From NCBI RefSeq assembly GCF_003576345.1, contig NZ_QWGB01000007.1:1-64000 (forward strand): DNA of 64,000 nucleotides. Direction: 5' to 3'. Origin of the DNA: Henriciella barbarensis (GTDB taxonomy: Bacteria; Pseudomonadota; Alphaproteobacteria; Caulobacterales; Hyphomonadaceae). Every line of letters starts with the position of its first letter. Position 1 is the first letter of the stretch. This document shows, in pieces, positions 1 to 13,899 of this stretch. The notes under the pieces were generated by a model. It had not been told where the DNA came from. It saw nothing but the letters and a program-made list of their open reading frames with translations, and made no database searches. Made by a program: the position numbers and the translations under genes.

Positions 1-63
1 TGACCCAGCCCCGTAATTTCCGGCCATGAATTTGCAGAGTCCTCGACACGAAGAGGATGACAG

Positions 64-330
64 ATGCGCAAATCACGATTTTCCGAAGAACAGATCATTG
101 GGATGATCCGGGAGCACGAAGCTGGTGTGAAGACGGCCGATATCTGCCGCAAGTACGGCATCTCGGATGCGACCTTCTACAAGTACAAGGCGAAGTTCGG
201 CGGCATGACGGTGTCGGACGCCCGGCGGTTGAAGACGCTGGAGGAGGAGAACTCGAAGCTGAAGCGCCTCCTGGCCGATGCCATGCTGGACAATGCCGCC
301 CTGAAGGACCTGGCGACAAAAAACTTCTGA
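64..330 (+). CDS. IS3-family OrfA (helix-turn-helix DNA-binding protein)
   Basis: An 88-residue OrfA that binds the element's ends and is fused to OrfB by frameshifting. The N-terminal half is a transposase-8-type helix-turn-helix ([17 protein letters not shown], then [10 protein letters not shown]). The C-terminal half is a leucine-zipper-like helix ([14 protein letters not shown]) that would mediate oligomerisation. A GAGGA ribosome-binding site lies about 7 bases before the ATG. The last sense codons form a canonical slippery heptamer, A AAA AAC, at 318-324, six bases before the TGA. OrfA therefore ends normally at 330, or ribosomes slip -1 into the OrfB frame. Confidence 0.9.
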
Positions 331-1244
331 CGCCCGATGCGAAGCGGAAGGCCGTGCACCACGTGATGGAAACGCATGGCCTGTCGGAGCGTCGGGCCTG
401 CCTGCTGGCCGATCTCGATCGGTCCACCTTCCAGTATGAGAAACGCGATGGCGGTGACGAGAAGCTGCGCCAGAGGCTACGGGAGCTGGCTGGTGAACGC
501 CGCCGGTTCGGCTATCGCAGGCTCGGCATCCTGCTGGACCGCGAGGGCCTCAGTGCCAATCACAAGAAGATCTACCGCATCTATGCCGAGGAGGGGTTGG
601 CCGTGAAACGACGACGCGGGCGAAAGCGGGCGACAGGCACGCGTTCGCCCATGCTCCTGCCGGAACAGGCGAATGAGCGATGGAGCCTGGACTTCGTGTC
701 GGATGCCCTCAGCGATGGCCGCCGGTTCCGCACGCTCTGTGTTGTCGACGACTTCTCCCGGGAAGCCCTGGCTGTGGTCGTCGATGTCTCCTTGTCCGGC
801 GTGCGGGTCGCGAGGGAGCTGTCCCGCCTCATCGCCCAGCGGGGCGCTCCGAAGATGATCGTCTCCGACAATGGCACTGAGCTCACCAGTCATGCGATCC
901 TGAAATGGGTCCGCGAGGTCGGCATCGAGTGGCATTACATCGCGCCGGGAAAGCCGACACAGAATGCCTTCGTCGAAAGCTTCAACGGCCGGCTGCGCGA
1001 CGAGTGCCTGAACGAGCATCTCTTCGACAGTCTCGGTGACGCCCGGCGCATCATCGAAGCCTGGCGGATCGATTACAACACGACACGGCCGCACACCGCA
1101 CTCGGCGGACTTGCTCCGTTGACCTATGCCGCTCAGCACCGCAGACACCGGCCCGGCTCGCTTGAGCGTCGCGGTGGCTCCGCTCGCCGGGCCTTGACCT
1201 CAAACCAACCAACAGAAAGAAAGGCGAACAGACTCTCCGAATGA
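64..1244 (+). CDS. IS3-family transposase OrfAB made by -1 programmed frameshift
   Basis: The DDE transposase that cuts and joins the element. It reads orfA to the A_AAA_AAC heptamer at 318-324 and then shifts -1, continuing with [11 protein letters not shown] to the stop at 1244. The rve integrase core shows all three acidic residues: D in [11 protein letters not shown] in [11 protein letters not shown] and E in [14 protein letters not shown]. An HTH_21-like stretch ([16 protein letters not shown]) precedes the core. OrfB could also start alone at the ATG at 366. No internal stop or deletion is visible, so the element looks transposition-competent; activity itself is inference. Confidence 0.88.
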
Positions 1245-1254
1245 ACGGCCCGGA

Positions 1255-2385
1255 TCACGGGGCTGGGTCAGTCTCACCAGCTGATTGAACATACGCGTGC
1301 CATTCTGCTTTACTTCGGAAACTAGAAGGGTCCGGCACTGCGACCGCGTATAGGGCGCGGAAATAGATATAATTCAGCTTGAAGCTCGAGTTGTTAGCCA
1401 ACTCTGTATCAACAATCTTTTGAAGTAATTTCCCGCGAGCGAAATCGTCTTCCGCAGTTTTCGCAAGGCTTGGCTTCTTCGCCGTGTTCTCAGCAATTAT
1501 TTTTTGCCCCAACGAGTGAAATGTATGGACCTGAAGCCCATCAATTCCTTTGAACGCAGAAAGGCGTGACGTAATACGTTCGCGCAGCTCTTCGCGAGCC
1601 GAGTTATTGAACGCGACCACTAAGATCTCTGCAGGCTCGCAGAGTTTATTCATCAAAATGTACCCGATTCTTCCGACTAGCGCGGAGGTCTTTCCGGAAC
1701 CAGCAGGCGCTACAAGTAGGTTGCGGTCCTCCATAGTTACGGCAGCCTGGCGTTGCTCATTGGTGAGCGGACGACTTTCGACCTGTTCGAAAAAAGATTT
1801 GTATCTGAGCAATTCGCCTTCAACGAATTTGCGGTTTCGCGATTTGATGGTCTCAGACTGGTCCGATGCTATCTCGCTTATCGTAGCTAGCTTGTCGCGA
1901 ACGGCTGGATCTACCAAATCCAATTGGAACATGGGGTGCATGAGAAAACGCAACACTCTCCCATAACCCAACGATGCTTCGCTTAAATAGCTCTCGATCC
2001 ATTTCTGGCGGTCTCGGTTTGCGATGTACATTGGTTTAGCGAGGAGAGCTTCGATAGCGGTTGAAAGATGCACAATCGACGTGCCCTCATTCGATAGGGC
2101 TGCCGCAACGCCGTTCTGGACACGTGCAACAAGTTTCTTCTCGAAACTTCGGGCTTCACCGATCGGCAAACGCTTTGCCTCTAAGCTCATATCGTGGGCT
2201 CGAACAGAAATATCCGCCCAGCCGATGAGCTTCGGTACCAGTTGGACATCCACGACGTCTTGATACGCAATAGTTCGAGGCGCCTCACCACGAGTAGCGA
2301 AACGGATGGATCCCAATTCTAGGCTTACTGTTGTCTGCCGGACTCCGCCCAAAAGGCTTCCGATTCTACCACTACTGATTTCCAT
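1255..2385 (-). pseudogene. HelD-like (helicase IV) UvrD-family helicase, truncated by IS3 insertion
   Basis: About 371 native residues of a superfamily 1A helicase. The N-terminal ~190 residues resemble the HelD/helicase IV accessory domain. FFEQVESRPLTNEQRQA (Q-motif region) and Walker A (APAGSGKTSAL) follow, then ILVVAFNNSAREEL and the VHTFHSLG motif. Helicase IV of E. coli is close to 690 residues, so motifs III-VI are missing. The last native codon is cut at 1271. The frame then runs into the IS end, adds TDPAP and stops at a TGA inside the IS inverted repeat. The remaining product could bind ATP but should not be a working translocase. The missing half is beyond the left edge or lost. 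Confidence 0.85.
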
Positions 2386-2981
2386 CTAAACTTAATGCCA
2401 TAATTCTGCGGGCCCGTTCATCTTCTTTCTTAGATGGCGGCAGAAATCAGTCGAGACACCAAGCCTAAACGGCTAATTCGGACATCGTCGGCTGGCGTCT
2501 CTCTAGGATACATGGTCCAGAGATAGAGGAAGTGCCCGAAACATAGATGCCAACCAATGGCGTTATTCGCGGCAGGCTGTGCGAAATATATTTGCCTGGT
2601 CGTGACTGCCGAACTACCTGCTGCCTCTTTGGAGAGTGAGATACGTAAAGGCCAAAGCGCTTCGATTTCTTATTGGATAGCGTTTGGCTTTGTCTCGTTC
2701 ATCCGCACTCATGGTATTTCGACAATAATCACATGAGTTCAAATGAGTGAACTTGTGGGGCTGTTCACTTTTTTCGGGTCGAAATACCCAATCTTCGGTA
2801 CCTACAGTGGGTGTAGAAGCATCTAGTGGCCATGTTGAGCATACCTGTTGGGTAACACTGTATAGGCGGGGCGCCTCAGTAAGCGTGGGGCGCGGCAAGG
2901 CGCTAGGGGTGCGCTAAGTAGTGGGGCATGTGGGGCATTGGGGCACGTTGCTAAGCGCCTGTCCTCTCAGCCCTAGACGTC
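2386..2981. other. Intergenic stretch without a recognised gene
   Basis: About 600 bases between the helicase remnant and the nuclease gene. The only open frame of note (minus strand, 2614-2898) has no family resemblance and was not accepted. The sequence is lower in GC than the core genome to its right. Around 2922-2945 three copies of TGGGGCA occur 9 and 8 bases apart. I see no hairpin with a T-tract, no RNA gene and no attachment-site duplicate of the tRNA-Arg 3' end here. Confidence 0.5.
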
Positions 2982-3473
2982 CTAATCGTAGGACCGATCA
3001 CCCCAAAGGTCGGCCGGGCAAGTTGGCGACCAAACATTTGCGCCCGCCTCACGAGCGCGAGCCTCCTCATCCGCATATCGGCCATCGCTGTAGCGTGGCC
3101 AATCGCGGCCCCACCCCGTCGATACCATGAATTCACCGATATCGACGCCGGCAACGTCACACACCGCAATTGCGCGATCCCAACGGTCCTCACCGCTGAC
3201 ATCGCAGGTGACAGTCCGGCTTCCGATAAAATCAGACAACGCCAGGGCTGCTTGCTGATACACGTTCACATCGCCGCAGCGCGCCCCCCGTTCAGGGGTG
3301 TCATACCCGCTTAGTCGAACTCGCTTCCCATGAATTTCGATCGTGTCGCCATCAATGACCGACGCAACTCCAGCCAACTCTTCAATAGCGGGTTCGGCTG
3401 CTGTCGACCCGACGCTACACCCGGCTATTACGAATCCGAGCATGCCAAACGCCCCTACCCTCTTTATCGTCAT
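2982..3473 (-). CDS. Thermonuclease (staphylococcal nuclease homologue), lipoprotein
   Basis: A 163-residue SNase-fold protein. The N-terminus is a lipoprotein signal (hydrophobic stretch ending GFVIAGC, Cys19), so it is probably exported and lipid-anchored. The nuclease core carries the family landmarks: VIDGDTI near residue 40 (metal-binding Asp), VRLSGYDTPERG around 52-62 (Arg53, Asp58, Glu61) and DRWDRAIAVC near 97-105 (second catalytic Arg). Four further cysteines could form disulfides. SNase proteins hydrolyse DNA or RNA with calcium. It lies 270 bases beyond the end of zorD on the same strand. Its place in a defence island is suggestive, but such lipoproteins are also common housekeeping genes in alphaproteobacteria. 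Confidence 0.85.
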   Translation of the reverse strand: MTIKRVGAFGMLGFVIAGCSVGSTAAEPAIEELAGVASVIDGDTIEIHGKRVRLSGYDTPERGARCGDVNVYQQAALALSDFIGSRTVTCDVSGEDRWDRAIAVCDVAGVDIGEFMVSTGWGRDWPRYSDGRYADEEARAREAGANVWSPTCPADLWGDRSYD

Positions 3474-3743
3474 CTGAAAGCCTTCCTAGTTCAATAAGTA
3501 GGTTCGACCCGCGAACCCACTTGATACGTAGGCTCGCTAAGCCCTTTGCGTAGCACGAACACGCTAACGAGGCGTACCACCGAGGTCTTGCGCGCTGGCG
3601 GAGAACGGGCGGCCGACGCCGCTGCATGCTGGCAAACTCGATCACACTGAAAATTCGACTAAGCCTGACCGATATCTCTTGATCCACTGCAAGCGCAGTA
3701 GTTCGACATCTAACGAGGCATTACCGATGAGCGTATCGGGTAG

Positions 3744-6700
3744 CTAATGAACCCCACTCATCTTTGGTTGAGACTGCTGCGTAGAAGATATCGGCTCATG
3801 AGTGGCGACGACTGTGCAGTCTTTTTCTGCACTCATCACACCCTGAATGCCCCGGCCGAGATCCCAGATGAAACGGTCACCCGTTCGAGCGACTGCCTCC
3901 ACGCTCCGGTCATGAAGATCATCACCAGCACGCTTGGACTTTATTTCGAGCGTTAATGGGACATCCGAGAGCCCCGATCTCCAGCTTCTGGAAAGATGCT
4001 CCACCTGATCATCGTCGCTCTCTCGGTGATCCGAGTTTGTTGATTCGGCATCATACGCAGTCAGTTCAACCTCCGTAATATTTGCAGTCATCCGTCTTAG
4101 TTTTTGTACAAAAGCAACTACCTGCTGGCGTTGCTTTCTGTGGGCGCATGTATAGGGGTCTACGATCTTCAGAGTGCTAATATCTGCACCGTCCAGGTAC
4201 TGCGAGAAAATTCGCCAATCTCGTGCTTCGCCCTGCTTGAAAACAAGGCGCGAAATCAGCGCTGCAGGTGGCTGTTCTTCCCAGCCCGGAATCGCGTCTT
4301 TTGCGGTCAACAGCCGCCGTACTTTAGGAGCTTTTTCCGGTTCTCTTTCTGTCGGCAGTGGCACAAGGGGGTCTTCAGCCTCAAGCGCCAGCTTACCTTC
4401 TTCACCCGTTCGCGCAGTAGCCCAGTCTAATGTTTCTGCGAGAAGATATTCAGCATCGCTATCACTCTCAGGCGGCACAAGCAGGGTCGAGCTCAGCTGG
4501 CGCTTGCGCCGCATCAAGGCGTCGAGCCGCCTGTCAAAGCTATGTTCAGCGACACTTGGATCCGGATGGATTGCCAGAGGGAGGTGCACTGTAACCGGCT
4601 TATCTTGCCCTATCCGATAGACTCGGTCTGTCGCTTGGTCCTCGACTGCCGGGTTCCACCAGCGGGAGAGATGGATGACATGATTTGCCGAAGTAATATT
4701 CAATCCGACCCCTCCCGCCTTGGGGGAAAGGATCAGCAGGTCAAATCCTTTTGGGGCCGCCTGGAAACGGTTGACGATATTTTGGCGTTCGGCGCTTCGT
4801 ATACTGCCATTTATTCGAGGTACCGGGTGCGGTAGGTCGAACCAACGCTGCAAAGCTCCAGACAAGAAGTCTTGCATCGCATGGCTTTCGCAGAAGATCA
4901 GCGCTTTCTCCCCTTCCTCTCGAATCGACTGAAGGATCTCGAACGTCTTTTGGAGCCGGGCTGATTCTTCGATATATGCCCTGTCATCGCTGACTGCATG
5001 CGGGCTGGCCGGATGGAGTGAAGTTCCCCGCATCTGCTGGATGATTTCAAGCATCGAACCACGGCTACCCTCCTGGCGCATGGCCTGCGCCCGCAAAAGA
5101 ACCTTGTCATAAGCAGCTCTCTGCCTGGGCGGCATCGCCGCTTCATGAATGACCATCTTCTTCTCAGGGAGACCTTCGAGAATGTCAGATTTCATTCGTC
5201 GCAGCATGAAGGCCGGTGTATTGTCGGCCTGTTCGGTAATCTTCGAGTGAAGGCTTTCCATAGCCACGCGGTCGTCCGGCGTGTACTTCGTCTCGAAGTC
5301 CTTGCTCGTCCCGAGAAACCCGGGGAAAATAACGTCACTGATCGACCACAAGTCTTGTAGCCTGTTTTCAACGGGTGTGCCTGTCATGCCTATTTGCAAT
5401 TGACCGTTGAGCGTTTTTGCCGCCCGGGTCATCTGGCTGACTGGGTTTTTTAGCTTCTGGATTTCATCGTAGACGACAACCGAAAAGCGGATCTTGGCGA
5501 AGCTCATATGATAGTCGCGCATCGTTTCGAAGGTCGTTAGCACCACCCCCGCGTCCCGCAGTTCCGAAACGTCTAAGCGTGAGCTACCACCTCGGATGTC
5601 AGTACCCTTCGCTGTTCGCAGTCGGTTAAGGTCGCCACCATAAACTCGTTCGAGCCGACCTAGCGCACCCGGGCGAATGTGTAGTTCAATCTCCTGTTCC
5701 CAGTTTTTGAGTAGGCCGCTAGGTGCGACGATCAAAATGGGTGCCAAACTTGGGTTCTGGCCCTTGAGCCACGCAAAGAATGCCAGGGCCTGAAACGTTT
5801 TGCCTAGTCCCATATCGTCGGCCAGCAATAAACCAGGTGTGCCGCGTTGCCAGCCATGAGAAAGCCAGGCGATCCCGATTTTCTGATGGGGCTTCGGGGT
5901 GGATATCACTGACTGTGGCAGGTTTGGCTGCTCGAATGCCGGCCCGCCCTCTCCTGCTGCCAGGGGTGCAAATTTTAGCTCTTCAAGATTGTCATCGACC
6001 TGAAGAAAATAGGTATCTCGAGGAGGTTCAGCTTGGTCCTGATTTCCCGCTGTCTGTGCCTTAGTTGCTTCATCATGAAGAGTTGAAAGGTTTTCAATCG
6101 CGGCAACGAACTCCGGCGTGGCTGGGTAGCGTTCGCCCTCAAACGCGAAATCTTCTTTCTCGTCTTGCAAGGCCTGCGCTGCTGCCGCCTTTAGTTCAGG
6201 CAACCGTTCGGGTACGAGGCTGATCTGCCTGTCATGAGGCGGGTCGCCAATGCGAACCCCAAAAATTTCAGGAAGCCATGAGTTTGGTTTTGATTTTAGC
6301 CACGGGACAACTACCGGCTTCCAGACCTCGATATCGCGAACACGGGTCGAGAACTGCTCTGTTTCGACAAATAGACAAATCTCGCCATCATCGTCTTCCG
6401 CAGACCCTGCAGCCAAATATTCGCGCATAGCAAGCGTAGGGTTTCTGGCGAATTCCCGCTTCTCCTCATTCGATGCTCGTTGTTTCCGATGAACTAGTTC
6501 GAGCCCACGCCTCAGCCCCTCATCGAGGAACACAAACGTTCCATCCGGCATAAGGTACCCATTACGAACAGTACTCGCCTGCCTAAATTTCTGCGCAAAA
6601 GCGCGCGCTCCATTTGGCGGTAACAGCCCCTCTGAGGTCGCATCCGGCAAGCTTCCAAGCTCCTGCGAAGTTTCGTTGGTTCGCTGAGCAAATAGTACCG

Positions 6701-7376
6701 GGTCGAAATCGAACTCACCGTCTGCAAGCTTCAGATCGAGTGAAAACGCGGCGGCATGAGCAATTTTTAAACGGCTGATTTGTCCGTCCGGCTCGATTTG
6801 CCCCCCAATTTGATTGCCGAGTACCTCTTTCAACTTCACCAGCACGGCCTGTCTAGCTGAAAGTTCGCTCTTGCTATTGAGCTCTCGAACTAATTGCCAA
6901 GCCTGGAATAGTCGCCGCGGCAGCCGGAAGCTTTCGCCGCGCGTTCGAATGCGCGCGCCCGCCACGTCACAACGTTCGGCCTGCCCACCTCGACTAAGCC
7001 AGCGCGCCTCCACATTAAATGTCGCCTCGTGAACTAGACCCCTGCCGTTCAGCTGCAGCGTGAGTGGCGTCACTGGCGGCAGCCCCAGCTCCCGGGCGTC
7101 AGCCTCTTCCAGATCCGCGACGAGATGAGCGGGCAGTAACAACCCGTCACCGTCCTCCTTAATCAGCTGAGCCGTGTCATCTTCACCTTGCACCCGAGCT
7201 TTCGCGAGCGCCCTGCCTTGCGAATAAGAAAGCTTGCTAGGCCACTCTGCGATTGGGATGGTGTTCAACTTTGGTTTCATTAGCGGCAGCGATGGGGCGC
7301 GCGTTTCCCGCAGCTCGATGCGTTCTCGCCCGTCAGGTCGCAACATAGCGCAAAATCGGATGTCGACTTTCGTCAT
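3744..7376 (-). CDS. zorD: ZorD, SNF2-family helicase of type I Zorya
   Basis: A 1210-residue effector of the Zorya defence system. The first ~500 residues form an N-terminal region of the kind seen in bacterial SNF2-like proteins. The ATPase follows: Walker A DDMGLGKTF near residue 524, DEIQ Walker B near 637, TGTPVENRL (motif III), SPKAGGVGLN (motif V) and DRVYRIGQD (motif VI) near 920. The last ~150 residues contain LHDRSVEAV and WDLGRGIQG around 1155, resembling the phospholipase-D-like MIT C-terminal domain. The ATG at 7376 was chosen because it overlaps the zorC stop by one base (TAATG); a longer frame to 7451 would sit inside zorC. In studied type I systems ZorD degrades invading DNA after activation. 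The assignment rests on motifs and gene order. Confidence 0.9.
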   Translation of the reverse strand: MTKVDIRFCAMLRPDGRERIELRETRAPSLPLMKPKLNTIPIAEWPSKLSYSQGRALAKARVQGEDDTAQLIKEDGDGLLLPAHLVADLEEADARELGLPPVTPLTLQLNGRGLVHEATFNVEARWLSRGGQAERCDVAGARIRTRGESFRLPRRLFQAWQLVRELNSKSELSARQAVLVKLKEVLGNQIGGQIEPDGQISRLKIAHAAAFSLDLKLADGEFDFDPVLFAQRTNETSQELGSLPDATSEGLLPPNGARAFAQKFRQASTVRNGYLMPDGTFVFLDEGLRRGLELVHRKQRASNEEKREFARNPTLAMREYLAAGSAEDDDGEICLFVETEQFSTRVRDIEVWKPVVVPWLKSKPNSWLPEIFGVRIGDPPHDRQISLVPERLPELKAAAAQALQDEKEDFAFEGERYPATPEFVAAIENLSTLHDEATKAQTAGNQDQAEPPRDTYFLQVDDNLEELKFAPLAAGEGGPAFEQPNLPQSVISTPKPHQKIGIAWLSHGWQRGTPGLLLADDMGLGKTFQALAFFAWLKGQNPSLAPILIVAPSGLLKNWEQEIELHIRPGALGRLERVYGGDLNRLRTAKGTDIRGGSSRLDVSELRDAGVVLTTFETMRDYHMSFAKIRFSVVVYDEIQKLKNPVSQMTRAAKTLNGQLQIGMTGTPVENRLQDLWSISDVIFPGFLGTSKDFETKYTPDDRVAMESLHSKITEQADNTPAFMLRRMKSDILEGLPEKKMVIHEAAMPPRQRAAYDKVLLRAQAMRQEGSRGSMLEIIQQMRGTSLHPASPHAVSDDRAYIEESARLQKTFEILQSIREEGEKALIFCESHAMQDFLSGALQRWFDLPHPVPRINGSIRSAERQNIVNRFQAAPKGFDLLILSPKAGGVGLNITSANHVIHLSRWWNPAVEDQATDRVYRIGQDKPVTVHLPLAIHPDPSVAEHSFDRRLDALMRRKRQLSSTLLVPPESDSDAEYLLAETLDWATARTGEEGKLALEAEDPLVPLPTEREPEKAPKVRRLLTAKDAIPGWEEQPPAALISRLVFKQGEARDWRIFSQYLDGADISTLKIVDPYTCAHRKQRQQVVAFVQKLRRMTANITEVELTAYDAESTNSDHRESDDDQVEHLSRSWRSGLSDVPLTLEIKSKRAGDDLHDRSVEAVARTGDRFIWDLGRGIQGVMSAEKDCTVVATHEPISSTQQSQPKMSGVH

Positions 7377-8764
7377 TAATATCCTCGCCCAAATACCGGA
7401 TGACGGAGATTCGTCGCCCGATAAATCTGCCCAGCGAAACGTGCCTGCCAATTACTCATGTGAGAAATATGGAAAAAACTTCCCCCGTCCGCCATGGCTT
7501 TGAGACGCCGAGTTTCGTAGGTTTTGCCAAAGAACTTCGGCGCTTGGGGATGCTCGCTTCCCCAAAATCGACAAGCACCATTATGGCTCCACTCGGCGAT
7601 CACGAGATCTCCCAGTTTCATCAAAAGTGAAGAATGGCTCGCATCGCTTCCACCGCCTGTATTAAGCGTGGCGAAATCCACCCTTTCACCGGATGCCGCG
7701 ATGATCTTGCGAATATCTTCTTTCGCACGTGGGCCAAGTGCAAACCAGGCGTCCGAAATGTGTCCTGCTTCTAGGTAGCCCAGCCAGAAGCGCTCGCGTT
7801 CGTCCCACTGATCCCTGCGCTCCGTTGTACTCGCAATAGCGCGAAAAAACGTTCGCATTGCCGCGTCGGTTAACCAGCGACGCAAGACAGACACTAGCGA
7901 ATACGCCGCCTCTGGACCTTCCTTGTCAGCAATCACACGCTCTAAATTGGCCCAGCGGGTTACGGCAATACGGGGATCTCCGACACTTTCGACCAGGAAA
8001 TTTGTGACATGTTTGCGGTGATCATCGCCGGGGTTCTGATTTAACCAAGGCCTCAGTAATGCGAATGCTAGAATAGGAGTGCAGACGGCACCCTCCTTGG
8101 CCTGCGCGAACATCTCCAGCAGTCGCCTTTGCCCATCGACAGCCGCTTCATCGCGCATCAATGCTACAGCCCTGCACGCCTCATCGAATGCAACATCGCC
8201 GAATCGGGTCGAAAATATCCGTGATCCAAAGCCTAATTTTTCAAGCAACGTATGCGGCCGCGGACCACCGAATTCTACCAGTGCCTTTCCTACCGTGGAA
8301 GGCCCATCTTCGAGATGCCATAGACGCCAGGTTTCGCCCCGGCCGGCCCAAGGCTCGCCCAAATACGTAGCAGCTTCCTTCGCAGCGTTCGCCAAACTTG
8401 TGCAAACAGGGTGATCAACAGGAAAATGTTGTAAATATCCAGCAATGGTCGAGCGAAAATGGCTTCGTTTCTCTCGGCGGCGGGCTTCTACGAGCGCCTT
8501 AAGCCCCAGCCCATGATAGTCCGGATACTGCCATACTTGGGATAGTAGCAAATTGAGATCCCTGCTCTTGGCTCTTGAAAGGGCCTCTGAGGACATCCGT
8601 TGAAGAAAAGTGATTAGTTCTTCGGTATCCACGAGTTTCCCGACAAGCGGATCAGGTAGATGGACCAGTGCTGCCTCTACAGCGGTGCATTCCGACAGCC
8701 GAACCGGGAAGCCATGTTGGGTGCGGCTCCGAATATCGCCAGCAACGCTCTTCAACCCGTTCAT
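7376..8764 (-). CDS. zorC: ZorC, EH-signature protein of type I Zorya
   Basis: A 462-residue protein occupying the zorC position. It is an all-helical-looking soluble protein without signal peptide or membrane segment. It has the features of the EH-signature family, named for conserved Glu and His: a WDERERFWLGYL segment near residue 320 and IAEWSHNGACRFW near 395, followed by another His-rich C-terminal patch (FFHISHM and NLRHPVFGRG). ZorC is a DNA-binding component that helps ZorD act on phage DNA in the studied E. coli system. The ATG overlaps the zorB stop (ATGA at 8761-8764), indicating translational coupling. Sequence alone would be weak; the order between zorB and zorD makes the call strong. 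Confidence 0.87.
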   Translation of the reverse strand: MNGLKSVAGDIRSRTQHGFPVRLSECTAVEAALVHLPDPLVGKLVDTEELITFLQRMSSEALSRAKSRDLNLLLSQVWQYPDYHGLGLKALVEARRREKRSHFRSTIAGYLQHFPVDHPVCTSLANAAKEAATYLGEPWAGRGETWRLWHLEDGPSTVGKALVEFGGPRPHTLLEKLGFGSRIFSTRFGDVAFDEACRAVALMRDEAAVDGQRRLLEMFAQAKEGAVCTPILAFALLRPWLNQNPGDDHRKHVTNFLVESVGDPRIAVTRWANLERVIADKEGPEAAYSLVSVLRRWLTDAAMRTFFRAIASTTERRDQWDERERFWLGYLEAGHISDAWFALGPRAKEDIRKIIAASGERVDFATLNTGGGSDASHSSLLMKLGDLVIAEWSHNGACRFWGSEHPQAPKFFGKTYETRRLKAMADGGSFFHISHMSNWQARFAGQIYRATNLRHPVFGRGY

Positions 8765-9537
8765 GGCAAGTCTTCAAGTAAGCTGGAAGGGTTCTCCGGA
8801 TTCCCGCCCGGTGTTTGCATCAGAAATCTCAAATCAATCCTTCGGTTGCGGCTTTTCGCGTCCTCAGTGTCGCCGATGTCTATCGGACGATCCGGGCCAT
8901 AACCGCTCACGCCAAGAATTGATTGTGCTTCCGCGTCAGGACCATTGCGAAGCGTCTCAAGCAGCGGTGCCGACACTCTTAACGCCCGAAACGTGTTAAC
9001 AGCTCGCCGCATAGATAAATCATAATTGTCCATTTGTCCCCGCATCGGGTCGCTGTCGGTATGGCCCTCAATGAAAATTGCATCGACTCTGTGCCGTGCA
9101 CGGTTCTGCGGTGCACAGCTGGCCCCATACGTGTAGCAGGGCAGAATTTCCGCCATAGTCGCGGCGACGGTCTCAATCTTCTGAAGGTTTGTCGGCGCGA
9201 GTTCCCAAGCCCCTTTGGCGAAAAGTACTTCTTCCGGCAGCCGCAGCACGCCTGTTTGGGTATCAATCGTTACTTGAACACCGCGTTCTCTAAGGGTCTG
9301 CTCAAGAGCCTGGAGAAGTGCCGTCCGGGTAGATTGTGCGCTGCTTAAGGCAGCGACGGTTTCCTGATACTCAAGCTGAGACTCACTCAGCTCAGCGGTC
9401 ATCTCCTGATAGTCTATCGCAAAATAGACTAGCATAATGATGAAAATAAAAAGTAGGCCGACCATCATGTCCGTCATCGAGACGAAATAGCTTTCGGCTT
9501 CCTCTGACGGCCTTTTGCGTCTACTCGACTCAATCAT
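8761..9537 (-). CDS. zorB: ZorB, MotB/OmpA-like peptidoglycan-anchoring stator subunit
   Basis: A 258-residue inner-membrane protein. A basic, acidic cytoplasmic N-terminus leads into one transmembrane helix (about residues 22-42). That helix contains Asp23 in SMTDMMVGLL, the position of the proton-carrying Asp of MotB-type stators. A coiled linker (44-85) follows, then an OmpA/MotB peptidoglycan-binding domain with FIEGHTDSDP near 155, NYDLSMRRA near 171, GYGPDRPID near 212 and SRNRRIDLRF near 229. Extra Cys residues (134, 141) sit in an insertion of the periplasmic domain. Start and stop overlap zorA and zorC by four bases each (ATGA). It should form a proton-driven complex with ZorA. Confidence 0.92.
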   Translation of the reverse strand: MIESSRRKRPSEEAESYFVSMTDMMVGLLFIFIIMLVYFAIDYQEMTAELSESQLEYQETVAALSSAQSTRTALLQALEQTLRERGVQVTIDTQTGVLRLPEEVLFAKGAWELAPTNLQKIETVAATMAEILPCYTYGASCAPQNRARHRVDAIFIEGHTDSDPMRGQMDNYDLSMRRAVNTFRALRVSAPLLETLRNGPDAEAQSILGVSGYGPDRPIDIGDTEDAKSRNRRIDLRFLMQTPGGNPENPSSLLEDLP

Positions 9538-11045
9538 GTTTCAGTGCTTTTCTCGCGTTGCTGCAGCCGACCGAGAAAGTCTTCGGCCTGATCAGAAAAC
9601 TCTTTCAGAGGTTCGAGCGCAGCGCCGAGCCGTTGGATACCCTCGCCAAGTTTGGCATCGATTTCCCCAACATGCTGGACCACGTGATCTGCATGATCAC
9701 GGGAAGCTTTCGAAAGGCTCGCAAGCGCCGCGGCAAGCGCCTCGTCCACTGCCTCAAACCGACCCTGATAATCCGACCAAGCAGCTTCCGCGGCCGCCCC
9801 TGTGGCCGCGAGCTGCCTAGACAAGTCACGCATGTCCCCCCGAGCCGTTTCAGCAGATGCAGCCTGTTCGGCCACAAAACTTCTCGTAGCCTCAAGAGCC
9901 CCCTCGATCGTCTGCGCAACTTTTTGTAGTGGATCGACGGCCACATGCACATCACTTGCTGCCCGTTCAAAGGCTTCTGCCGCCTTCACAGAATTTGACC
10001 CTGCTGCCTCGAGCATCTGCAGATGGCTGTCCATCGCATCACGTTGGGCTCCCATACTCTGCGACAACGTTGTCAACGTACCACTGAAGGTGGTCATAGC
10101 AGTCGCAAGTTCTGCCATTTCAGCTCCGGCGTGCTCGCGCATCGCCTCTGCAATCCCGCTCGCACCCTCACCGTTAATCTGGGCAATACCGCGGGATATA
10201 TCGTCAAGCGCGCTAACCATCGGTGCAACCTGGCGCTGGAACGACTCATCAATCGTCAGGGCAAGCTTTGTCGCAAGATCCTTCACGGCAGGCGTCTGTT
10301 CCTTCGCCTGGATGAGCTGCTCAATGGCAATACGCTGCGGCGGCAGGTAAGCCATGCCGTGCTCCAAGTAGTCGCATAAATCCGACAGCTGGCGGCTGAG
10401 CTTCTGCTTCGATCGATGATCGACATACCGAAGCAGGATCGAACCGAACAGACCGCCTACCGAAGCCCAAAACTTTGCAGCGGTAATTGCGAGAAGCTGT
10501 TGGAGCCCGGCTCGCATGCCATCAGCGTCGGTTCCTTGCATGCTCGCCGTCGCCGCCGTCAGTGCAGCAATAATGCCCAGAAAAGTAACGAGCAGACCAA
10601 TTGCTATGAAAATATTGGCAAGCCAGCCAAGCGTTTTGGCCTCGTCCACTAAATCCAAAAAAAAATGTTCGGGCCGAGCTGTGTTCTGCAAGCAGTCTTC
10701 CGCCGAAACGTCGACGATCGTCTCGCGGTACTCCTCCCAGCTACGACGCAACATAGGCACTAGGCCCCGCCCAGATTGGATCATTACTGCATCAATGTCC
10801 GAAAACCGTCTCGCAAAATTTGCGCGAACCACATCAAGCGAGTCGGCCGTCTCAATTTCCGCCAACACCTCGTTTCGCATTGCAAGAGCGCGGGAAAGTG
10901 GTGAATGGATGAAAACCCAGTACTTTGTCGAGATAGCCACGGCCCAGGCGATGAGAACTATGGCAGCGACAAGAGCCATCGCGTCGCCGATGCCGGGCAC
11001 GCTTGTAAAAACCCAAATCAAGCCTTTGCCGACCACGTCGATCAT
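9534..11045 (-). CDS. zorA: ZorA, MotA/ExbB-like channel subunit with coiled-coil tail
   Basis: A 503-residue membrane protein. Transmembrane segments are predicted by eye at about 20-45, 140-162 and 184-208; the last two form the MotA/TolQ/ExbB core (FIAIGLLVTFLGII, KFWASVGGLFGSILL). From about 210 to the end runs a long, Ala/Glu-rich, charged helical region ending LGRLQQREKSTET, the intracellular tail typical of ZorA. The frame extends to 11270, but the ATG at 11045 was chosen because the upstream 75 residues look non-coding and the mature start MIDVVGKGLIW suits a first helix. E. coli type I ZorA is around 700 residues, so this tail is short. With ZorB it would sense phage infection at the envelope. 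Confidence 0.9.
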   Translation of the reverse strand: MIDVVGKGLIWVFTSVPGIGDAMALVAAIVLIAWAVAISTKYWVFIHSPLSRALAMRNEVLAEIETADSLDVVRANFARRFSDIDAVMIQSGRGLVPMLRRSWEEYRETIVDVSAEDCLQNTARPEHFFLDLVDEAKTLGWLANIFIAIGLLVTFLGIIAALTAATASMQGTDADGMRAGLQQLLAITAAKFWASVGGLFGSILLRYVDHRSKQKLSRQLSDLCDYLEHGMAYLPPQRIAIEQLIQAKEQTPAVKDLATKLALTIDESFQRQVAPMVSALDDISRGIAQINGEGASGIAEAMREHAGAEMAELATAMTTFSGTLTTLSQSMGAQRDAMDSHLQMLEAAGSNSVKAAEAFERAASDVHVAVDPLQKVAQTIEGALEATRSFVAEQAASAETARGDMRDLSRQLAATGAAAEAAWSDYQGRFEAVDEALAAALASLSKASRDHADHVVQHVGEIDAKLGEGIQRLGAALEPLKEFSDQAEDFLGRLQQREKSTET

Positions 11046-11392
11046 TGTGCTACCCCAGCGCAATCTACCTCTACACCTGAGGTCTACCGCGCACTGACCA
11101 GGGATGGCAAATCCACAATAACAATAAGCGGTGGAGAATCTTTGGAGAGCTTCCATCCTTTTTTCGCTGGATGCGCTGCGCTCCAAATCTGGCTCATGTC
11201 TGCCTGAAGGATTTCGGTAATGTGAAAGTATGCTCAGATGAACCAATCTAACGCGGGCATCATAGTTCATGAACGCGTCAAAACACTTAGGTCAGGCAAA
11301 ATGAGGCCGGGACTGCGGCGAACGAATTCGTAGTACCTCTGCGCGTGCTTCCGGTTATCTATCGGCTGAACCTGATCGAGGCACGCCCAATG
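11046..11392. other. Leader region between the glycosylase-like gene and zorA
   Basis: About 350 bases upstream of zorA on the minus strand. It should hold the Zorya promoter. A TATGAT hexamer is readable on the minus strand in the left third of the distance to the preceding gene, without a convincing -35 element. No terminator hairpin with a T-tract follows the upstream gene, so read-through from it into zorA is possible. I see no other gene here. Confidence 0.3.
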
Positions 11393-12340
11393 TCAGCCAA
11401 TACTCAGTGGTAGGCGCGCGCAATTGCCTTTCGCCGGACAGCGTTGAGCGCAACGCTGATCGCCACGTATTTGGTTGGCATTGCAGACGTTACCTTCGCT
11501 TCCCGCACAGCGTCGCCAAAGTGCGTGCTGAAAGATCCGAGGCACCGCACTCGGCCAGGCGTCATTGGTTCTGGATGCATCTACTCCGTCGAACGCAGTC
11601 AGCAGCAATCCACGACATCCACCATGCTGATAGCAACCCGCACCGAAAGCGTGCGCCGAGCCCGCAGCTTCAACTGCGCCGCACCGAATAAGCAGATTGT
11701 GCACGAGCCTATCGATGACCAGAAGTGATGTTCCTGCTTCGACGTAGAATGCTGAGTTCGACCCCACACCGAGCAAGATGTCGCTGACGAGCATGCTTCC
11801 AACCTTGTTGGACACGCCACAAAGCCTAGAGAAGCTCGTCACGAGCGATTCGGCGAATTCGGCAGGCGAGCCAACAAATTGCACGCGTTGGCTCTCCAGC
11901 CACGCCCAGGGTGTCCTGTGCGGCTTTTCGAGCGACCAGTAAGTTAAACCAATCGCCAACCTCGCGAGTAAGCCATTTCGCGCTGGCACCTTTCCAACCA
12001 CACACTCACTCAAACCCGTTGGGTTCGAACAGGTATTCGCCGTTTTGCGAAATCCGCAATTTTGTAATGCTGACACACCGCGCGACCATTCACATGCAGC
12101 TTGCGGAACGAGTGTTTCCAAGCGCTCGAAATCAGGGCTGCCGTGTTGCCCCATCCACACAGCCGCGGCTTGATCACTGACCCCCTGAAAGTTGCAGACT
12201 GCGAAAATGTGGGCGCAAAAATCAGCCCACGACCAGCGTTCGAAGTTTTGCCAGCCGTCAGATAAACCCGAGAGATAATTCGGGTCGAGGTTGTCATCGA
12301 CGATCGCCCTCAATGCTGCTTTCCACCTACGGCCGGGCAT
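11393..12340 (-). CDS. HhH-GPD / endonuclease III-like DNA glycosylase family protein (putative)
   Basis: A 315-residue protein I do not recognise as a named family. Its C-terminal half has the outline of the HhH-GPD DNA-repair superfamily. A helix-hairpin-helix-like LCGVSNKVGSMLVSDI around 173-188 has Lys179 where endonuclease III has its catalytic Lys. LLVIDRLVHNLLIRCG around 207-221 has Asp210 where that enzyme has its catalytic Asp. Near the C-terminus a cysteine group (278, 286, 297, 301, 307; last pair C-x5-C) resembles the 4Fe-4S loop. The K-to-D spacing is 31, longer than in endonuclease III, so this is inference. It lies upstream of zorA on the same strand and divergent from the recombinase. 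The weakly conserved-looking N-terminus (1-150) has no assignment. Confidence 0.55.
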   Translation of the reverse strand: MPGRRWKAALRAIVDDNLDPNYLSGLSDGWQNFERWSWADFCAHIFAVCNFQGVSDQAAAVWMGQHGSPDFERLETLVPQAACEWSRGVSALQNCGFRKTANTCSNPTGLSECVVGKVPARNGLLARLAIGLTYWSLEKPHRTPWAWLESQRVQFVGSPAEFAESLVTSFSRLCGVSNKVGSMLVSDILLGVGSNSAFYVEAGTSLLVIDRLVHNLLIRCGAVEAAGSAHAFGAGCYQHGGCRGLLLTAFDGVDASRTNDAWPSAVPRIFQHALWRRCAGSEGNVCNANQIRGDQRCAQRCPAKGNCARLPLSIG

Positions 12341-12376
12341 GGTATTGCGTTCTTGTTTTGTTCCTGTTATGCGTAT

Positions 12377-12405
12377 AGCTAACGTAACAAACTGGCAGGT
12401 GTCAA
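12377..12405 (-). promoter_or_regulatory. Possible sigma70-type promoter for the glycosylase-like gene
   Basis: On the minus strand a consensus -35 TTGACA (12400-12405 on the plus strand) is followed after 17 bases by a poor -10, TTAGCT (12377-12382). The gene start is 37 bases further. The -35 lies within five bases of the recombinase ATG on the other strand, so the two divergent starts share this spacer. Confidence 0.4.
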
Positions 12406-12409
12406 ATTA

Positions 12410-12991
12410 ATGGCCGGCAGGCAGGCGAAATTGCTGAGTGACGCAATGTTTGACCGAGCCCTCCGCCTCCTCACCAGCAGCCGATACCCCGAGCGCAATC
12501 GAGTGATGCTCCTGCTAAGTTTTAAAGCGGGCTTACGCGCTAATGAGATGGCCGGTTTGACCTGGGCAATGGTTCAACGAGCAGATGACCAACTGAGTCA
12601 CTGTCTCGAGGTGGAAGACCATATCGCAAAGAATCATCGTGGGCGCCGCATCCCAATGCACCGGGATTTGAGGAAGGCATTGCGCGAGCTGAAAGCTTAT
12701 GATCGCCCTCATACGCACGACACAGTGCTGCGAAGTGAGCGAGGCGCTTCGCTTAATAGCGCTTCGGTCGTGAATTGGTTTGCGGACTTTTACCGCACAC
12801 ATGGGTTCGCTGGCTGCTCCAGCCATTCAGGTCGAAGAACTTTCATTACAAAAGCGGCCCGCGAAATAAGCCGATGCGGAGGCAGCTTGCGCGATGTTCA
12901 GGAGTTGGCTGGTCATGCCTCACTTCGGATGACCGAGCGTTACATCGAGGGCGATCGTCAGACCCAACGACGGCTGGTCGCTCGATTGTAG
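12410..12991 (+). CDS. Compact tyrosine recombinase / integrase
   Basis: A 193-residue site-specific recombinase consisting of the catalytic domain only, without the usual N-terminal SAM-like core-binding domain. Active-site residues are visible: Arg43 in AGLRANEMAG, Lys74 in the beta-hairpin, His139 and Arg142 in HSGRRTF, His169 in LAGHAS and the nucleophile Tyr178 in ERYIEG. The start follows AGGTG at 12396-12400; the spacing is usable. A strong terminator follows at 13020. Its place beside tRNA-Arg at the island edge suggests it integrates or excises the island. Single-domain integrases of this size occur on alphaproteobacterial mobile elements, sometimes needing partners. Confidence 0.9.
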   Translation: MAGRQAKLLSDAMFDRALRLLTSSRYPERNRVMLLLSFKAGLRANEMAGLTWAMVQRADDQLSHCLEVEDHIAKNHRGRRIPMHRDLRKALRELKAYDRPHTHDTVLRSERGASLNSASVVNWFADFYRTHGFAGCSSHSGRRTFITKAAREISRCGGSLRDVQELAGHASLRMTERYIEGDRQTQRRLVARL

Positions 12992-13019
12992 AGCCCGGCA
13001 AACAGAACAGACTTTTTTT

Positions 13020-13052
13020 GAGCCCTGCGTTTCACACGCGCAGGGCTCTTTT
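13020..13052 (+). terminator. Rho-independent terminator after the recombinase gene
   Basis: A perfect 10-bp stem, GAGCCCTGCG (13020-13029) with CGCAGGGCTC (13039-13048), a 9-base loop, then TTTTC. It lies 28 bases after the recombinase stop and just before the ribosome-binding site of the next gene. A T-run precedes the stem on the same strand. Confidence 0.85.
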
Positions 13053-13070
13053 CATGAGAGGAGCTAAATC

Positions 13071-13415
13071 ATGACAGAAGCGTGTGAAAAAAGAACCGAG
13101 AGAACGCGACAGCTAAACGATCGATTTCGAGAAGATCCGAAAGACGGCAAGATTGTCGTGACCGAAGGCGTCGCCGTCATTGCCTACAATATTGGCCTCG
13201 GTGAGATTCTTGAGGCGGTCAAAACATTCGATCGGTTCGATGAGGCCAATGACCCGCACTCAGAGCATGACTTTGGTGCGATCGAGTTTGATGGCGCGAA
13301 AGTCTTTTGGAAAATCGACTATTACGATCGGGCCATTCAGGCCGGTAGTGCCGATCCCTCAGATGCCAAGCAGACAACCCGCGTCATGACAATCATGACT
13401 GCGGAAGAATACTAG
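13071..13415 (+). CDS. DUF3768 family protein
   Basis: A 114-residue acidic protein that matches the DUF3768 pattern: an N-terminal LNDRFR, a central FDEANDPHSEHDFGA, then FWKIDYYDRA and DPSDAKQTTRVMTIMTAEEY at the end. No function is known for the family; it is common on plasmids and mobile elements of alphaproteobacteria. AGGAG lies 7 bases before the ATG. It is followed after 11 bases by another small gene, and the pair is bracketed by two hairpin terminators, forming a separate short unit just inside the island edge. Confidence 0.8.
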   Translation: MTEACEKRTERTRQLNDRFREDPKDGKIVVTEGVAVIAYNIGLGEILEAVKTFDRFDEANDPHSEHDFGAIEFDGAKVFWKIDYYDRAIQAGSADPSDAKQTTRVMTIMTAEEY

Positions 13416-13426
13416 GAGAAATTGGT

Positions 13427-13645
13427 ATGACCACCGCATCAAACTTTCGACCAGCAATCGGCCAAAAGGTACTTCAATATATCGAGGACGACGGAGCCTG
13501 GTACACGTTGGCAGTCAAGTCTGATCTCCTGAGCCCGCTAAACGGTCGAGAAAGAGTCGAGGCCACCTACGTCGATTATCCGGACGATGGGAGCATCACG
13601 GTCTTCGTAGATGAACTTTACAAGATACCTGAACCGCTCAACTGA
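13427..13645 (+). CDS. Small hypothetical protein downstream of DUF3768
   Basis: 72 residues with no family I recognise. It is soluble, with an aromatic beta-rich look (VLQYIEDDGAWYTLAVK, YVDYPDDGSITVFVDELYKI). GGAGA precedes the ATG by 7 bases, and the start is 12 bases after the DUF3768 stop, so the two are co-transcribed. A terminator follows at 13676. Small genes in this position travel with DUF3768 on mobile elements, which is the only contextual hint. Confidence 0.7.
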   Translation: MTTASNFRPAIGQKVLQYIEDDGAWYTLAVKSDLLSPLNGRERVEATYVDYPDDGSITVFVDELYKIPEPLN

Positions 13646-13675
13646 ACGCGGCTCAGCGGCTTCGCGACGAACCAT

Positions 13676-13709
13676 GAAAACCCGCTTCGCTTTAGTGAGG
13701 CGGGTTTTC
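13676..13709 (+). terminator. Rho-independent terminator closing the DUF3768 unit
   Basis: A perfect 10-bp stem, GAAAACCCGC (13676-13685) with GCGGGTTTTC (13700-13709), and a 14-base loop. T-rich on the 3' arm and A-rich on the 5' arm, so it may act in both directions. It marks the last island feature before the tRNA gene. Confidence 0.8.
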
Positions 13710-13822
13710 CACAGCTTTTCGATTCGCCGGCTTTTGAGAGCGAATATCACTGCAGCTTGCTACCGATGTGCTACCGACAGCCTCGCGCGGGCGTGAGCAA
13801 TTCCGCTAAGTCATTGAAAACA

Positions 13823-13899
13823 TGGCGACCCCTACAGGACTTGAACCTGTAACCGTCGGATTAGAAGTCCGGTGCTCTATCCAGTTGAGCTAAGGGGCC
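13823..13899 (-). tRNA. tRNA-Arg (anticodon UCU)
   Basis: A 77-nt cloverleaf on the minus strand with encoded CCA. The acceptor GGCCCCT pairs with AGGGGTC. The anticodon stem-loop reads CCGGA-CTTCTAA-TCCGA, giving anticodon TCT. The T-arm contains GGTTCAAGTCC. The 3' end faces the recombinase-carrying island, the usual arrangement for integration at a tRNA gene. Confidence 0.95.

Follow-up and report, generated by a model that had tools for sequence, protein, structure and literature searches.

The closest described relatives of the locus reported here are the type I Zorya systems of Shewanella ANA-3, Serratia and E. coli. They consist of four genes, zorA-zorB-zorC-zorD, which encode a motor with a motor Asp and a peptidoglycan-type domain (ZorA and ZorB), an EH_Signature protein (ZorC) and an SNF2 ATPase (ZorD). 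E. coli ZorA has about 729 residues. To our knowledge, the way in which the signal of the ZorAB motor reaches the effectors is not settled. According to PMC11890865, removal of the whole tail of a type I ZorA abolished defence in the system studied, and an Mrr-like nuclease is described on type I ZorD, as it is in the PADLOC description.

The window, i.e. the 64,000 nucleotides from Henriciella barbarensis analysed here, carries the same gene set in the same order, with the motor Asp, the peptidoglycan-type domain, an EH_Signature ZorC and an SNF2 ZorD. Two natural changes bear on the handover of the ZorAB signal: an effector domain is swapped on the SNF2 chassis of ZorD, and the ZorA tail is shortened by 138 residues. 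Our overall reading, to which we give a probability of about 0.75, is that an intact type I Zorya system resides on a tRNA-Arg island and that a PLD-fold domain has replaced the nuclease of ZorD and serves as a DNA-engaging effector or clamp.

The operon and its assignment

The four genes lie on the minus strand and form an uninterrupted, overlapping operon from 11045 to 3744: zorA (9534..11045; MotA-like motor subunit with a cytoplasmic tail, 503 aa), zorB (8761..9537; MotB-like subunit with an OmpA/peptidoglycan-type domain, 258 aa), zorC (7376..8764; EH_Signature protein, 462 aa) and zorD (3744..7376; SNF2-type ATPase, 1210 aa). The PADLOC type I profiles were the best profiles for each protein, with 508 bits for ZorA (PDLC00604), 281 for ZorB (PDLC00610), 415 for ZorC (PDLC00620) and 1435 for ZorD (PDLC00634). 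The operon is thus almost certainly type I Zorya. A sequence-only reading of this DNA had proposed a complete and intact type I operon and had named failure of the ZorC or ZorD profiles as its refutation. Both profiles matched, and intactness holds at the level of the sequence, where all four frames and their motifs are preserved.

In NCBIfam, ZorA passed the subfamily model ZorA_1 (NF033914; 211.6 bits, cut-off 190), ZorB and ZorD reached 26.1 and 352.9 bits with the ZorB1 and ZorD equivalogs (cut-offs 400 and 1500), and no NCBIfam model matched ZorC. Scores so far under the type I equivalog cut-offs, together with the missing ZorC match, indicate a remote subfamily, and the two equivalogs appear to describe a narrower subfamily.

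The same reading overstated the novelty of a case outside the enterobacteria. Homologues annotated as 'anti-phage ZorAB system protein ZorA' are already known from, among others, Erythrobacter, Citromicrobium and Parvibaculum, and Zorya I in Vibrio and Pseudomonas is listed by Mariano et al. (PMC11890865). Three features had escaped that reading: the PLD-fold/MIT_C end of ZorD in place of Mrr, the ZorA tail shorter by 138 residues and the exact attachment site at tRNA-Arg.

ZorA, ZorB and ZorC

The ZorA tail begins at about residue 237. Alignment with relatives of 639 and 641 aa shows that a single block of 138 residues is absent; the remaining tail can be aligned along its whole length and both ends are kept, so that the shortening is clean. 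The full length of 503 aa compares with 696 residues in Shewanella (PMC11890865). A homologue with 69% identity also has 503 aa and lacks the same block. Among 55 complete ZorA ORFs, three including that of the window are shorter than 560 aa, and one of these, of 304 aa in L044, looks broken. The dominant helical periods are 3.63-3.66 for the N-terminal part and the middle of the tail and 3.56-3.57 for its C-terminal part; as the periods differ by part, 138 residues are near-integral only at about 3.63. In a rough test that lends weak support, the hydrophobic phase across the join was similar to that of long-tailed ZorA kin. The shorter tail in this lineage could serve as a natural deletion experiment on how tail length affects the coupling of motor to effector.

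ZorB was expected to keep Asp23 in its membrane helix and an OmpA-type domain, and both were found, the latter just above the Pfam cut-off (27.6 vs 27.2 bits). ZorB also matches chain 8vvn_B with an E value of 5e-22; Table 1 of PMC11890865 gives 8vvn as the Shewanella ZorB structure. ZorC matches EH_Signature (PF15611) with 139.5 bits against a cut-off of 27.5 and is 49% identical to its nearest other homologue.

The C-terminal domain of ZorD

ZorD matches SNF2-rel_dom (PF00176) with 177 bits, and its residues 335-968 align with the solved chain 8qy7_A (E 4e-78; entry name DEAD/DEAH box helicase), which we take to be ZorD. The alignment covers 1064 of the 1080 residues of 8qy7, which leaves no room for a domain behind the helicase. 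In contrast, the ZorD of the window continues past the aligned end with an extra C-terminal domain (3747..4262, minus strand; residues 1039-1210, Pfam stretch about 1055-1178) with the motifs HDR at 1155 and LGRG at 1173. Mrr_cat was found by Pfam neither in the whole protein nor in this domain.

The isolated C-terminus matches MIT_C (PF16565) with 28.9 bits (cut-off 25), whereas a Pfam search with the whole ZorD gave no MIT_C match at E<=0.001. MIT_C matched 10 of 18 members of the domain at E<=1; two other members, L041 and L109, had no Pfam match, and a genome-wide search found MIT_C neither in the window's own genome nor in G041. Structure prediction suggests an MITD1-type PLD fold that is Tdp1-like, with MITD1 as the nearest match, followed by DNA enzymes. 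Foldseek alone gave Tdp1 with no better than E 2.5e-4, and MITD1 was absent from its best 50 matches; nor did a profile search of PDB sequences with the C-terminal alignment find MITD1.

The PLD-type His and Arg are present in all 27 ZorD domains compared. The Asp at +7 occurs in none of them (one has Glu), and the HxK(x)4D or HxR(x)4D motif of PLD-superfamily (HKD) nucleases is accordingly complete in 0 of 27.

The same Pfam domain, MIT_C or 'HKD-endoDNase', ends an ATPase of another anti-phage system, BrxL of BREX. That ATPase is AAA+, whereas that of ZorD is SNF2, and the +7 Asp is present in all three BrxL domains examined. Genome-wide, PF16565 matched in eight genomes; the three full-domain matches are BrxL and the other five are partial or below the cut-off. 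According to PMC12839542, the C-terminal module is exchanged in BrxL too, and a Lys-to-Arg variant of the HKD motif is proposed to be still active. The C-terminal domain of MITD1, a eukaryotic ESCRT-III partner, stands in a different protein context and presumably has a different ligand. Among the matches listed in our literature search, no paper named both Zorya and MITD1, and in the two listed papers with ZorD, Zorya and phospholipase the last term refers to CBASS or its relatives.

Distribution of ZorD C-termini

ZorC as the sole query of a contig search was not useful: 22 stretches fitted a pattern and none encoded a relative. With the ZorA alignment as the query, 27 loci were obtained from named alphaproteobacterial records. 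All 24 full-length relatives from the window's PADLOC type I subfamily, mostly Sphingomonadales, carry MIT_C on ZorD; L039, with a ZorD ORF of 182 aa, and L023 and L034, at contig ends, lie outside this count.

A wider survey took one locus per genome from the 37 genomes of the phylum in which EH_Signature matched. It comprised the window, G041 and 23 further loci; 12 of the genomes, in which the match was mostly weak or partial, and the second EH_Signature matches in six surveyed genomes were left aside. In most of the other ZorDs surveyed, an Mrr-type nuclease stands where the ZorD of the window has the PLD-fold domain; the Mrr label is based on Pfam in 8 rows, on a motif pattern in 13 and on inspection by eye in one (L093, unlabelled in the tree). 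Eight of 33 ZorDs have no C-terminal domain, i.e. fewer than 100 residues past the last helicase motif; three further loci of the 36 fall outside this count (L046 and L105 at contig ends, L048 without zorD). Because of these eight and of 8qy7, Mrr is not taken as defining ZorD. In a careful tree, which omits seven rows (mostly long branches) and nine near-copies, the MIT_C-bearing ZorDs form a clade, which is alphaproteobacterial.

Proposed mechanism and alternatives

The generic Zorya mechanism very probably applies to this operon by analogy with the studied relatives. ZorA5B2 would sit in the inner membrane, with ZorB anchoring the complex to peptidoglycan. Upon phage infection ions would pass the ZorB Asp and the ZorA tail would turn or rearrange. 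The moved tail would then bring in ZorC and ZorD, and ZorD would work on the incoming DNA. The operon is thus probably a working phage-defence motor with an uncertain effector chemistry. The PLD-fold domain may have taken the place of the nuclease once, in the alphaproteobacterial clade, and could act in ZorD as a DNA-engaging effector or clamp; that it acts on DNA has about an even chance. We only tentatively consider a further-reaching version, a distinct Zorya branch in which Mrr was exchanged for an MITD1/BrxL-type PLD fold with a reduced HxR motif, as an effector portable between Zorya and BREX.

The domain may neither cut nor touch DNA, since the motif Asp is absent and the PLD fold of MITD1 binds membranes (PMC6015221). 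It could then be a tether that binds phospholipid and keeps ZorD near ZorAB, with DNA handled solely by the SNF2 part; such a tether would place ZorD at the motor by its own means. We regard this as rather unlikely, as the domain occupies the position of the nuclease in other ZorDs, the fold matches after MITD1 are DNA enzymes, and the same domain is found on BrxL, which has been described as an ATP-dependent DNA-binding protein (PMC10164562, where BrxL has a Lon-like C-terminus). Equally doubtful is an active PLD-superfamily nuclease that uses His and Arg as a catalytic replacement of Mrr. The invariance of both residues, the proposed activity of the Arg variant in BrxL and the Tdp1-like fold speak for it. 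Tdp1 works without the motif Asp. However, this Asp is kept in BrxL and lost in ZorD, and we know of no enzymatic activity of MITD1, the nearest fold. If the domain is active, one and the same module would be at work in both Zorya and BREX, which are otherwise unrelated as anti-phage systems.

For the operon as a whole, loss of defence in spite of intact genes is improbable. The effect of whole-tail removal in the studied system would fit such a loss, as would the helicase remnant and IS element nearby, which point to decaying island passengers; on the other hand, a homologue shares the same shortened ZorA, the remaining tail aligns throughout, frames and motifs are kept, and the phase across the join resembles that of long-tailed kin. 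MotB-family models of NCBIfam also match ZorB, weakly. Yet it is next to impossible that the genes encode a MotAB-like motor that has nothing to do with phage defence, with an EH_Signature ZorC and an SNF2 ZorD in the same overlapping operon and type I Zorya profiles matching all four proteins with hundreds of bits.

The island

The operon is carried by an island that has integrated at the 3' end of a tRNA-Arg (TCT) gene (13823..13899, minus strand; ARAGORN). The attachment site, the 3' part of the tRNA (13822..13867, minus strand), has a 46-bp copy, identical at 46 of 46 positions, at the other island end on contig C9 of the same genome (173608-173653). Recombinase genes lie near both island ends, among them a short tyrosine recombinase of 193 aa with the catalytic part only (12410..12991, plus strand; PF00589, 66.4 vs 27.1 bits). 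In 12 of 14 relatives tested the flanks abut in an empty site. The mobile island of the sequence-only reading is thereby borne out, and the helicase remnant, nuclease and glycosylase-like gene it had placed beside the operon are all on it.

The contig starts exactly at the end of an IS3-family element (1..1270, plus strand; NF033516, 235.9 vs 160 bits) with terminal inverted repeats at 1-17 and 1254-1270. The element occurs at ten places in the genome, each flanked on one side only, which we read as five insertions split between contig ends. A shared 4-bp flank pairs four of the five; the leftover pair is the right end of C9 and the start of C13. Since these two have no common flank, and since no ORF on C9 between a PolB-like gene and the IS is able to accommodate the missing part of the helicase, it is likely that a deletion occurred next to the IS or that a segment is absent. 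The PolB-like ORF, which belongs to the island, had no match in PHROGs, Pfam, PADLOC, NCBIfam or PDB sequences.

A conserved fifth Zorya gene was not found: by tblastn the HhH-like, SNase, helicase, recombinase and DUF3768 genes were absent from 39 other loci (L002-L040), a partial test, since L002-L013 span only 3-4 kb, L012 and L013 have no zor match, and contig ends truncate several among the 27 longer loci. These neighbours are hence taken as passengers. They include a remnant of a helicase IV-like gene, its N-terminal half, which ends at the IS (1255..2385, minus strand; NF008276, 142 bits, model positions 1-313 of 684), and an SNase-like nuclease of 163 aa (2982..3473, minus strand; PF00565, 27.8 vs 21 bits). 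A cysteine-rich ORF of 315 aa (11393..12340, minus strand) had no significant match with Foldseek alone and a significant match to the HhH-glycosylase fold with VIA-align. The DUF3768 ORF (13071..13415, plus strand) matches PF12599 with 117 bits against a cut-off of 25.

The operon and its products

The four zor genes lie on the minus strand and all overlap: zorA (11045-9534, 503 aa), zorB (9537-8761, 258 aa), zorC (8764-7376, 462 aa) and zorD (7376-3744, 1210 aa). These coordinates bear out the order zorABCD with junctions ATGA, ATGA and TAATG reported in the sequence-only reading. The assignment to type I Zorya made there also held: all four translations match the PADLOC type I profiles (ZorA 508, ZorB 281, ZorC 415, ZorD 1435 bits). 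Alternative in-frame starts exist upstream of zorA (11270) and zorD (7451); from the ATGs used here, the best PADLOC matches start at residues 4 and 7, corresponding to profile positions 6 and 5, respectively. In Pfam, ZorB matches OmpA, ZorC EH_Signature, and ZorD SNF2 and Helicase_C. Among PDB sequences, ZorB matches the solved Shewanella ZorB 8vvn (E 5e-22) and ZorD matches chain 8qy7 (E 4e-78), which is labelled only 'DEAD/DEAH box helicase' and which we take to be ZorD; ZorA and ZorC had no significant match there. The window proteins stayed below the cut-offs of the NCBIfam equivalogs ZorB1 and ZorD, which places the operon, as judged by its sequence, in a remote subfamily within type I. 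Type I Zorya as such is already annotated in alphaproteobacteria.

In relatives, ZorA5B2 is described as an ion-driven motor in which ZorB binds peptidoglycan and the Asp of ZorB is required (PMC11890865). Strand breaks were reported on overexpression of ZorCD, and in the literature ZorCD is thought to be recruited by ZorAB. According to a review, the tail relays the signal to ZorC and ZorD, and these two degrade phage DNA (PMC12409362). By its sequence, the window operon retains the parts that this mechanism would need.

A short ZorA tail

A search for ZorA homologues, in which 8000 candidates were scored and whose list is incomplete, found 143 proteins. Among the best 120 of these 143, the window's own included, 82 have exactly 641 aa and 15 have 639 aa; a length of 503 aa was seen, among the matches listed, only in the window protein and in the homologue P0002 (69% identical). 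When 23 ZorAs were aligned, the two short proteins lacked one block, with both ends of the tail aligned; among the 21 other proteins, 20 have a block of 138 residues and the homologue P0107 one of 167. Complete ZorA ORFs in the loci (n=55) have a median of 656 aa, and three are below 560 aa, the window being counted as 503. In the systems studied, the ZorA tail is required for defence and was modelled as a five-helix rod; component sizes are, per the authors, well conserved within each Zorya type (PMC11890865). We argue that the short tail is likely to be functional, because it has been kept in two diverged proteins.

A predicted PLD-fold domain at the C-terminus of ZorD

The survey of zor loci was anchored on ZorC (EH_Signature), with 13 of 385 genomes positive in a class draw and 37 of 398 in a phylum draw; the window and G041 were common to both. 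From these, 36 loci were taken, one per genome, and 12 phylum positives were left out. ZorD ends in an Mrr-type nuclease in 22 loci, in no domain in 8 and in MIT_C (PF16565) in 3, namely the window, G041 and G712; the other 3 loci were left unclassified. Mrr_cat was above the Pfam cut-off in all eight ZorDs tested. In a tree built from 57 helicase cores, a single change (support 99) accounts for MIT_C (27 rows); Mrr (21 rows) and the absence of a domain (8 rows) require five each. A careful tree of 41 rows, which omits 7 rows, most of them long, as well as 9 near-copies, again gave one change for MIT_C (18 rows, 100/98), with Mrr rows on either side of the drawn root and moderate support (82/89) for the fork uniting MIT_C with the nearest Mrr and no-domain groups. 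The simplest history suggested by these trees, whose root is not fixed, is that MIT_C took the place of the nuclease once.

In class genomes PF16565 matched in 8 of 347, in four of them above the cut-off. The three proteins with the full domain are BrxL, the AAA+ ATPase of BREX (PADLOC 836-1085 bits); the two scanned by Pfam scored 176 and 170 bits for MIT_C, which we infer to be the C-terminal 'HKD-endoDNase' domain described for BrxL in the literature. A profile comparison of the ZorD domain with the three BrxL domains gave E 3.7e-6 (probability 87). All 27 ZorDs retain the motif's His and Arg. However, the Asp at +7, present in all three BrxL domains, is found in none of the 27, so that by its motif the ZorD domain does not qualify as a standard HKD enzyme. 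Candidate roles are a DNA-engaging effector, an active nuclease and a membrane tether; the PLD-like fold of the eukaryotic protein MITD1 is membrane-binding (PMC6015221). We lean towards a putative DNA-acting role because of the position that the domain has taken.

No paper naming both Zorya and MITD1 was found in the literature searched, which did not extend to Hu et al. 2025, and broader searches gave no link of Zorya to MITD1 or phospholipase among the matches listed. Two papers name phospholipase along with ZorD and Zorya, and in the passages covered the word refers to CBASS or cGAMP-activated enzymes. A Zorya II paper (PMC13192584) has the word phospholipase once and does not name ZorD.

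Two loci depart from the usual gene content. L048:2621-6236 (genome G095) carries zorABC with a short ZorA of 507 aa; zorD was not found adjoining, and the downstream ORFs had no identifying search match. In L039 (Sphingobium subterraneum) zorABC is intact and zorD, a 182-aa ORF only, is apparently broken.

The island and its attachment site

The window opens contig C13 of a 3.33 Mb genome in 14 contigs. Beside the 3' end of tRNA-Arg (13823-13899), homology to relatives of the genus starts exactly at 13822 in 13 of 28; the remaining 15 show greater divergence, and their matches start elsewhere. The tRNA-Arg end is duplicated on a second contig (C9:173608-173653, 46/46 identical). Of 14 relatives tested, 12 have the empty site: there, the chromosome flanks of C9 and C13 meet at a single tRNA-Arg and overlap by 46 bp. 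For the remaining two, the C9 flank is unmatched. A tyrosine integrase (397 aa) adjoins the C9 att copy and a recombinase (193 aa) lies near that of C13. The att duplicate, the recombinase genes near both copies and the empty site substantiate the earlier proposal of a mobile island. Its G+C content (1271-13821) is 0.542 versus 0.579 for 13822-64000, and ZorC had no match in any of the 28 same-genus genomes.

C9 and C13 both terminate in the same 1270-bp IS3-family element, which is seen at ten places in the genome; its sequence is identical throughout, and it always lies at the end of a contig and is flanked on a single side. Eight of these ends can be matched into four pairs by a common 4-bp flank, which leaves over the C9 right end and the C13 start; by elimination this supports their being neighbours, although the two share no target duplication. 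Probably there were five insertions of the element, which explain several assembly breaks. If the two contigs adjoin and no segment is missing, the island would measure about 18.3 kb (4,465 bases of C9 before the IS and 13,821 on C13).

Between the recombinase and tRNA-Arg lie a DUF3768 ORF and a small ORF (13071-13655). The C9 part of the island (locus L147) contains an ORF pair adjoining the integrase, 7229-8197 (322 aa) and 8194-9951 (585 aa). The 585-aa ORF had no match in any library searched; by eye it has family B DNA polymerase-like motifs (DINAMYSS, YANIDS). Full-length homologues with 48-50% identity occur on a Sphingobium yanoikuyae plasmid and a Sinorhizobium megaplasmid, each next to an upstream ORF of similar size.
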